Shown here piece after piece: positions 4,261 through 23,202 of a stretch of DNA of 64,000 nucleotides. The number at the start of each line of letters is the position of its first letter. The stretch's first letter is position 1. Source of the stretch: Sulfolobales archaeon (GTDB lineage Archaea > Thermoproteota > Thermoprotei_A > Sulfolobales > AG1); NCBI GenBank assembly GCA_038881635.1, contig JAVZPJ010000002.1, forward strand, positions 120,369 through 184,368, read 5' to 3'. Position numbers and translations under genes: made by a program. The notes beneath the pieces are model-generated. The model did no database searches, was not told the DNA's origin, and was given only the letters and a program-made list of their open reading frames with translations.

Positions 4261-5214
4261 CTAGAGGATAATTCTCCTACTCGTTAGATCTCTGGATGTA
4301 AGTTTTCTGTAGATCTCTATCGAATCAGAACACCATAGATCAAGATCTCTTTCTCTTATAATACTCTCATCCTTGTTCAAAGGCTTTAAATATACTATCT
4401 TAGAGATCTTGAGATCCTTAAGATCCTCAGGATTTAACTCTATATCCCTTTCAGCTAGAATTACTAGCAGTGATTTTTTAATGAAATAACCTAAAATCTC
4501 GCCTCTAGACATGCGATCTTTTAAAGAGTTTTTCACAAGCATATCAATCTCATTGCTTAGAAATCCTATCTCTTTAGAGAAGCTATGAGATATCTCTACA
4601 AAGACCTCGGGTTCAGGATTTTTCTCGTATCTTCCTATAAGCTCTCGAGCTCTTGCTATGATTTCAGGAGTGAGTCTTCTAAGCATCTCAGGAGTGAAAA
4701 TTCCTCGAGGTAATATGCCTACTACTACGGAGAAGTTTTTAAGAGAACTACTCTCAAGAGATCCATAGCAGGGGGCTCCTGGTATTTTTCTGACCTCTAT
4801 TCCGTATCCTAGAAGCTCTGAGATCACATCTCCAAGTCCTGTCATGGATCTCACTTCAAGCTCGTGAGCTATCAAGCCTGCTGAAACTAATATTCTTCTA
4901 ATATTCTCTCCACCTAGGATCTTTGAAGCTATTCTAAAGCCTAATCCTATTGCTATATTCGCGCTGACTCCAGCTCCTGCTCCTAGAGGTATTTCCGATA
5001 TCACTCTCATTTTATAAGACTCTCCATAGGATCTTCTGGCGAGAGATATCATGTCAAGATTCACACATTCTGAGTCTACGTATAGGTCGCATCCTACCTC
5101 ATCATAGCAGATCCTAGTCATCGGCTTTAGAACTATTCCAACTCCAGTACTCCCACTCCTCAGAGGATCCTCATGATAATGAGGAGTCCATACACCACTT
5201 ATATGAAGAGGTAT
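4261..5214 (-). CDS. Pantoate kinase (GHMP family)
   Basis: ATP-dependent phosphorylation of pantoate to 4-phosphopantoate, the first step of the archaeal CoA route; the next enzyme is encoded at 5865-6656. The GHMP phosphate loop PLGAGAGVSAN lies at residues 45-55 counted from the first ATG (5121). Homology clearly begins upstream of that ATG: the same frame reads IPLHISGVWTPHYHEDP and then LRSGSTGVGIVLKP, the conserved N-terminal strand and SGS loop of pantoate kinases. The frame is open from about 5250, but the extension has no ATG, GTG or TTG. I place the start near the ATA at 5214 as a best guess. The family and function are secure; the start codon is not. Confidence 0.85.
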   Translation of the reverse strand: MPLHISGVWTPHYHEDPLRSGSTGVGIVLKPMTRICYDEVGCDLYVDSECVNLDMISLARRSYGESYKMRVISEIPLGAGAGVSANIAIGLGFRIASKILGGENIRRILVSAGLIAHELEVRSMTGLGDVISELLGYGIEVRKIPGAPCYGSLESSSLKNFSVVVGILPRGIFTPEMLRRLTPEIIARARELIGRYEKNPEPEVFVEISHSFSKEIGFLSNEIDMLVKNSLKDRMSRGEILGYFIKKSLLVILAERDIELNPEDLKDLKISKIVYLKPLNKDESIIRERDLDLWCSDSIEIYRKLTSRDLTSRRIIL

Positions 5215-5260
5215 TTCAAGACAATTGCTCGTTAAAGATACACCCTTACTCTATTTCACC

Positions 5261-22403: not shown

Positions 22404-22484
22404 GATATTAGATCTTGCGAGAACCATCTCTAGGATGGGAGTGGTAAGTATATAAGTTCATCATGTAACATATCTCTTGAGAGT

Positions 22485-22491
22485 AGAGGTG
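22485..22491 (+). promoter_or_regulatory. Ribosome-binding site that sets the secE start
   Basis: AGAGGTG matches the archaeal 16S anti-SD. Its last base is four bases before ATT at 22496, the first codon of the conserved SecE segment. No ATG, GTG or TTG is in frame. Confidence 0.5.
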
Positions 22492-22495
22492 CCAG

Positions 22496-22690
22496 ATTAT
22501 AGCTGATAGATTCTCTAATCTCATAGAATCTTGGAGAAGAATTCTAGAGCTTGCTAGAAGACCTGATTCTGAAGAATACAAGCTCTTCATAAGAATCATA
22601 TTCCTAGGATTCTTTCTCGTAGGCTTCATAGGCTTTACAATATCTCTACTGGCATACTACATACTCACATGGCTTGGGGGAGGCTTATGA
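22496..22690 (+). CDS. secE: Protein translocase subunit SecE (Sec61 gamma)
   Basis: A 64-codon frame encodes the single-span SecE/Sec61-gamma subunit that clamps the SecY channel. After an amphipathic helix (FSNLIESWRRILELARRPDS) comes the conserved EEYKLF entry and a hydrophobic span IIFLGFFLVGFIGFTISLL. Only non-standard start codons are available: the stop TAG at 22484 is followed by AGG TGC CAG ATT ATA GCT GAT, and AGAGGTG lies at the right spacing before ATT (22496) or ATA (22499). The stop overlaps the start of spt5 as ATGA at 22687-22690. The secE-spt5 order is widely conserved in archaea. The gene is easily missed because of its size and start. Confidence 0.85.
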   Translation: MIADRFSNLIESWRRILELARRPDSEEYKLFIRIIFLGFFLVGFIGFTISLLAYYILTWLGGGL

Positions 22691-23202
22691 GTGAGAGTAG
22701 TAGAGATGCTAGCGAGGAGTTTAGAAAGCTTCAGCTATATGTTGTGAGAACTATAGGTGGTAGAGAACTTGACGTAGCTTTAACCGTTGAAACAATAGTA
22801 AATTCTCTGAAGAATGTCAATCCAACAGATCAGACTCTAAGCTACTTAAAGGATATAAGAGCTATCATAGTTCCTCCGGATATAAAAGGCTATGTCATAT
22901 TCGAGGTTCAAAACCTTCATACAGTATATCTAGCTGTTAGAGATATAAGACAGGTTAAGGGTAGAGCTGCAGGATCTATAAGTTATAAAGATCTTGAGGA
23001 GATGATCAGAGTCAAACCTATTATAGAGATGCTTAGAGAGAAAATGGTGGTAGAGATAGTTGCAGGACCTTTCAGAGGTTCTAGAGGAACTATACAATCT
23101 ATAGATAGAGAGAGGGAGGAGGTTTCAGTCTATATAGCAGAATCTCAGTTTCCAATGACTATAACACTTCCAGCTGAATTTGTAAGACCTGTTCAGCAGT
23201 AG
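22687..23202 (+). CDS. spt5: Transcription elongation factor Spt5 (NusG-like)
   Basis: Archaeal Spt5 binds the RNA polymerase clamp (with Spt4) and promotes processivity. The NGN domain starts at LQLYVVRTIGGRELDVAL and includes VPPDIKGYVIFEV. The KOW domain is at the C-terminus: MVVEIVAGPFRGSRGTIQSI and EVSVYIAESQFPMTITLP. The frame is open from ATG 22669, but the ATG at 22687 follows GGGGGAGG and overlaps the SecE stop (ATGA), so I use it; the protein is then 171 residues, the usual size. The next gene is convergent, so rpl11, often next in archaea, is not here. Confidence 0.95.
   Translation: MSESSRDASEEFRKLQLYVVRTIGGRELDVALTVETIVNSLKNVNPTDQTLSYLKDIRAIIVPPDIKGYVIFEVQNLHTVYLAVRDIRQVKGRAAGSISYKDLEEMIRVKPIIEMLREKMVVEIVAGPFRGSRGTIQSIDREREEVSVYIAESQFPMTITLPAEFVRPVQQ

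Follow-up and report, generated by a model that had tools for sequence, protein, structure and literature searches.

The secE locus

Where does translation of secE begin when its reading frame offers no canonical start codon? The question is raised by a 64,000-nt stretch of the genome of an uncultured, thermophilic Sulfolobales archaeon, hereafter the window. After an in-frame TAG at 22484-22486, the secE frame (22487-22690, forward strand) reads AGG TGC CAG ATT ATA GCT, with ATT at 22496 and ATA at 22499, and stays open to the TGA at 22688-22690. As the initial annotation had reported, there is nothing else on offer: ATG, GTG and TTG are absent from all 67 codons.

The gene itself is real, as had also been claimed. 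SecE homologs were detected in 110 of 117 genomes of relatives, with E values down to 4e-24, and secE precedes spt5 in the relatives checked for gene order. In the window, spt5 (22687..23202, forward strand) starts at an ATG at 22687 that overlaps the secE stop in an ATGA. Homology and this position before spt5 together establish the identity of the gene. The Pfam profile PF00584 (SecE) gives no score to the window's SecE, and profile-based annotation would therefore miss the gene along with its start. The draft assembly of the source genome totals 1.4 Mb, falls into 18 contigs and contains some runs of N; its nearest relatives among the genomes compared are Desulfurococcales metagenome genomes and Desulfurococcaceae archaeon AG1.

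Upstream of the candidate starts lies a Shine-Dalgarno site, GAGGTG (22486..22491, forward strand), matching GGAGGTGATC of the ATG genes here. It forms part of the AGAGGTG (22485-22491, forward strand) that the initial annotation had correctly placed four bases ahead of ATT; counted from GGTG, ATT is 4 nt away and ATA 7 nt. A TATA-like box, AGTATATAAG, recognized from its sequence, is found at 22447..22456 on the same strand, and the usual archaeal TATA-to-start distance would put the transcript start near 22478-22484. The arrangement GGTG-N7-ATA occurs nine times in the window against 5.5 expected by chance, which alone is not unusual. What gives it weight at secE is that the conserved frame, still open at its 5' end at this point, offers no alternative start.

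Probable near-cognate starts in other genes of the source genome

Is secE a solitary case? We sampled about 450 kb of the source genome, comprising 413 coding frames, for frames whose conserved part starts before the first canonical codon. In about a dozen of them no canonical start is available, and ATA, ATT, ACG or CTG stands 5-8 nt after a ribosome site. The conserved genes with AUU or AUA behind GGTG that the initial annotation had thought worth searching for thus exist, with ACG and CTG included in the count. They include rpoB (GGGGTG-AATCCCT-ATA), rpl37ae (GAGGTG-TTTAAAA-CTG), pth2 (GGGTG-AAAAG-ATT), a DAO oxidoreductase (GGTG-ATTTA-ATT), the gamma subunit of a 2-oxoacid oxidoreductase (OFOR-gamma; GAGGTG-ATCTACT-ACG), TYW1 (AGGTG-ATAGTCT-ACG), an amidohydrolase (GTGGTG-AGTTGAG-ATT) and endonuclease V (AGGGGGTATAT-ACG). 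An ABC permease and a small membrane protein also lack a canonical start, though these are less certain.

The second case within the window is pantoate kinase (4264..5232, reverse strand), which reads GGGTG-TATCTTTA-ACG AGC AAT TGT CTT GAA. Its ACG lies 8 nt after GGGTG, the first canonical codon follows 37 codons downstream of it, and the protein gives a weak match to the GHMP kinase N domain. The most likely start, judged from this arrangement, is ACG rather than AUA or AUU.

Conserved protein features and relatives both bear on these starts. The Pfam domains of DAO, POR, PTH2, L37ae and endonuclease V start before the first canonical codon, and the Rossmann GAGVVG motif of the DAO oxidoreductase lies upstream of it. 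The rpoB ATA aligns without gaps with the ATG of a sister species in the same genus (G001); the rpoB query ended in five guessed residues, which leaves the 5' alignment unaffected. The pth2 ATT likewise aligns gap-free with the ATG of AG1, and the rpl37ae CTG occupies, again gap-free, the position at which most of the relatives read have ATG. In G001, rpl37ae has ATA at that codon, but an in-frame GTG stands three codons earlier.

Distribution across the order

The initial annotation had suspected that this organism may use AUA and AUU starts more than usual. That probably holds for several genes, but relatives across the order show the same trait, and ACG and CTG are among the codons. Restriction of the habit to the source genus is ruled out by G002, G007 and G034, and the last two are single-contig genomes that also show the pattern. 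In the single-contig Sulfolobaceae genome G034, canonical starts are absent at the conserved 5' ends of leuS, which has ATT (L232-L233), of a PDCD5-like gene with ATA (L228), of a TiaS-like gene with ATT (L219) and of a Trm56-like gene with ATA (L216). The rpoB gene in another family of the order (G011, G030) appears to start with CTG. In G011 a canonical start is absent ahead of the conserved DRW region, and GGGGGTG-ATGTGTT-CTG is available (L243). In G030 (L246) an in-frame GTG is also on offer.

How often would such codons fall behind ribosome sites by chance? The 450 kb of the source genome were pooled with approximately 0.4-0.5 Mb from each of four relatives, all within the order, giving 115 GGTG-type sites at frame 5' ends with no canonical codon nearby. 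At spacings of 5, 7 or 8 nt, a set derived from the ATG genes of the source genome, ATA, ATT, ATC, ACG and CTG account for 38 of the 79 slots, where 9.8 would be expected. The excess persists in the four other genomes of the order (27 of 62 against 7.5). Each of ATA, ATT, ACG and CTG is individually in excess, while AAG and AGG are not enriched at these spacings in the five genomes. Shuffled motifs, used as a control, gave 12%, and spacings of 4, 6 or 9 nt showed no clear excess (24 of 145), 6 nt included. Looser definitions of the site shrink the excess. None was seen in 200 kb of E. coli, a control of little power. Taken across the relatives sampled, near-cognate starts (AUA, AUU, ACG, CUG) would account for roughly 1-3% of genes.

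The fen1 gene of the Sulfolobaceae

The most uniform case is fen1. In the Sulfolobaceae it begins ATA GGA GTA GAT, with ATA or ATC in 18 of 18 genomes read (L264-L273, L294-L300, L303; ATC in G050, G065 and G095), and ATG, GTG and TTG are absent from its 5' end in all 18. The start lies a few bases after GGTGA (GGGGGATAA in G120). In the genomes read from other families, ATG, GTG or TTG occupies the same position. Fifteen of the 18 genomes are single contigs, so an assembly error is an unlikely source of the pattern. Selection for low output might explain the retention of the fen1 AUA.

An archaeal FEN1 structure from Sulfolobus, PDB 2izo, may carry a trace of this start. Using as query the 2izo alignment together with a homologous N-terminus, we found that the 2izo chain aligns from its own residue 2 to family residue 7 and is devoid of the MGVDL-type beginning present in other archaeal FEN1 structures. 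The missing N-terminus is likely a consequence of annotation.

Choice of the secE start codon

Which codon, then, starts secE? In the ATG genes of the source genome that have a good site, the GGTG-to-start distance peaks at 5, 7 and 8 nt, with a mode of 7, while 4 nt is rare (3 of about 70). The SecE of a family member, G005, starts MASLSNLIESW (ATG GCG); read from ATA, the window's protein is (M)ADRFSNLIESW, with GCT second, and the alignment needs a one-residue gap. Because of the 7-nt spacing and the G005 N-terminus with Ala as second codon, we prefer ATA (22499..22501, forward strand), giving a coding sequence of 63 amino acids plus stop at 22499..22690 by homology and reading of the frame. 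The non-standard start proposed in the initial annotation, ATT or ATA, is thereby upheld and narrowed to ATA. The same near-cognate mechanism could instead operate at ATT (22496..22498, forward strand), just 3 nt from ATA, equally near-cognate and used in the DAO, pth2 and amidohydrolase genes of the source genome. Its four-base distance from GGTG is the rare one, however, and it would add a residue without counterpart in G005, where Ala is codon 2 as it is after ATA. We therefore regard ATT as an unlikely start.

Might the ordinary start have been displaced or destroyed? A GTG at 22489 sits one frame off secE, and one extra base in the assembly or the gene (GTGCCAGATTATAGC is the assembled sequence at issue), or a ribosomal frameshift, would make it the true start, reading GTG CCA GAT ATA GCT (MPDIADRF). 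The secE of G024 reads GTG GGG ATC GCC GAC AGG TTC, and in G001 an in-frame GTG directly follows the TAG of the secE frame. Such a start demands an indel inside an essential gene, has no strong ribosome site upstream while GAGGTG itself is well spaced for ATA, and leaves aside the many other genes of the source genome that show the pattern with no nearby frame break; we consider it improbable. The G001 frame (L002) reads TAG GTG TAT AAG ACG AAT ATA AAT GAG, so that GTG, ACG and ATA are all candidate starts there. Assembly or consensus errors that destroyed ordinary ATG starts in secE and the other genes are barely credible. The source genome is a draft in many contigs, and every codon involved is one base from ATG, yet errors would not prefer ATA, ATT, ACG and CTG above AAG and AGG, nor the correct spacing. 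The recurrence of the pattern in G034 and G007 and the retention of the fen1 ATA across a family argue likewise. The sequencing slips that the initial annotation had allowed for secE and pantoate kinase are not supported, since the pattern is systematic, well spaced, matched to orthologous ATGs and repeated in single-contig genomes. Translation of secE from AUA at 22499, as one case of an order-wide near-cognate habit, is in our judgment likely.

A possible mechanism of initiation

How could the ribosome accept AUA? On a leadered secE mRNA, GAGGUG would pair with the 3' end of 16S rRNA and set AUA in the P site, where the ordinary initiator tRNA (anticodon CAU) would accept it with one mismatch and insert Met. 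Strong pairing of GGTG with 16S rRNA would be the simplest account of this one-mismatch acceptance by CAU. The same would apply throughout the order to a subset of the genes that have a GGTG-type site, their start codon differing from AUG by a single base (AUA, AUU, AUC, ACG or CUG). The support lies in the sequences, in missing canonical starts, site spacing, codon enrichment, matches to orthologous ATGs and the family-wide fen1 AUA; initiation by the ribosome at these codons, insertion of Met and any effect on expression are what we infer from it.

Two other explanations were ruled out. An altered initiator tRNA is at odds with a normal-looking CAU initiator, and an odd copy was not seen among the 30 read of 45 tRNA loci. 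Loss of aIF1 fails, since aIF1 was found in all 40 genomes searched. In S. solfataricus, aIF1 reportedly selects against start codons other than the canonical ones (PMC6237735). That report counts against a near-cognate reading, and near-cognate starts would accordingly be expected to initiate at modest rates.

Relation to known systems and significance

Non-AUG initiation is already a known kind. In bacteria, AUU starts E. coli infC and pcnB, and NCBI table 11 lists rare non-AUG starts; to our knowledge, starts of the infC/pcnB type are confined to very few genes. The present cases would resemble them in a start codon that differs from AUG by one base, in Shine-Dalgarno guidance and in an expected Met, and differ in comprising about a dozen of some 413 frames, in including ACG and in affecting essential genes, rpoB and rpl37ae among them. 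Eukaryotic near-cognate initiation (CUG, ACG) relies on scanning and is not known to use AAG or AGG. The codon sets overlap, and AAG and AGG are likewise unused here, but in the present cases pairing with 16S rRNA would set the position without scanning. A passage of PMC11627041, citing Tolstrup 2000, describes Shine-Dalgarno-directed initiation in Sulfolobus with the consensus GGUGA, and the motif and leadered-mRNA logic it gives are the same as those proposed here. In the literature searched, the start codon in that system is taken as canonical, with aIF1 reported to select against others (PMC6237735). Reports of AUA, AUU or ACG starts in archaea were not found in the open-licence literature, where the present extent and the use of ACG have apparently not been described.

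Shine-Dalgarno-directed near-cognate initiation is apparently spread through the GTDB order Sulfolobales. We think it likely that some 1-3% of Sulfolobales genes, some of them essential, genuinely start at AUA, AUU, AUC, ACG or CUG under such guidance, and that some of these starts, such as the fen1 AUA, are conserved family-wide, probably through selection to set expression. Because most starts called by gene finders are ATG, GTG or TTG, proteins with near-cognate starts would be truncated, extended or missed in databases; the FEN1 of PDB 2izo is a likely example of a misplaced start with consequences. How does strict, aIF1-based start selection coexist with conserved AUA and ACG starts? The Sulfolobales raise this as a testable question.
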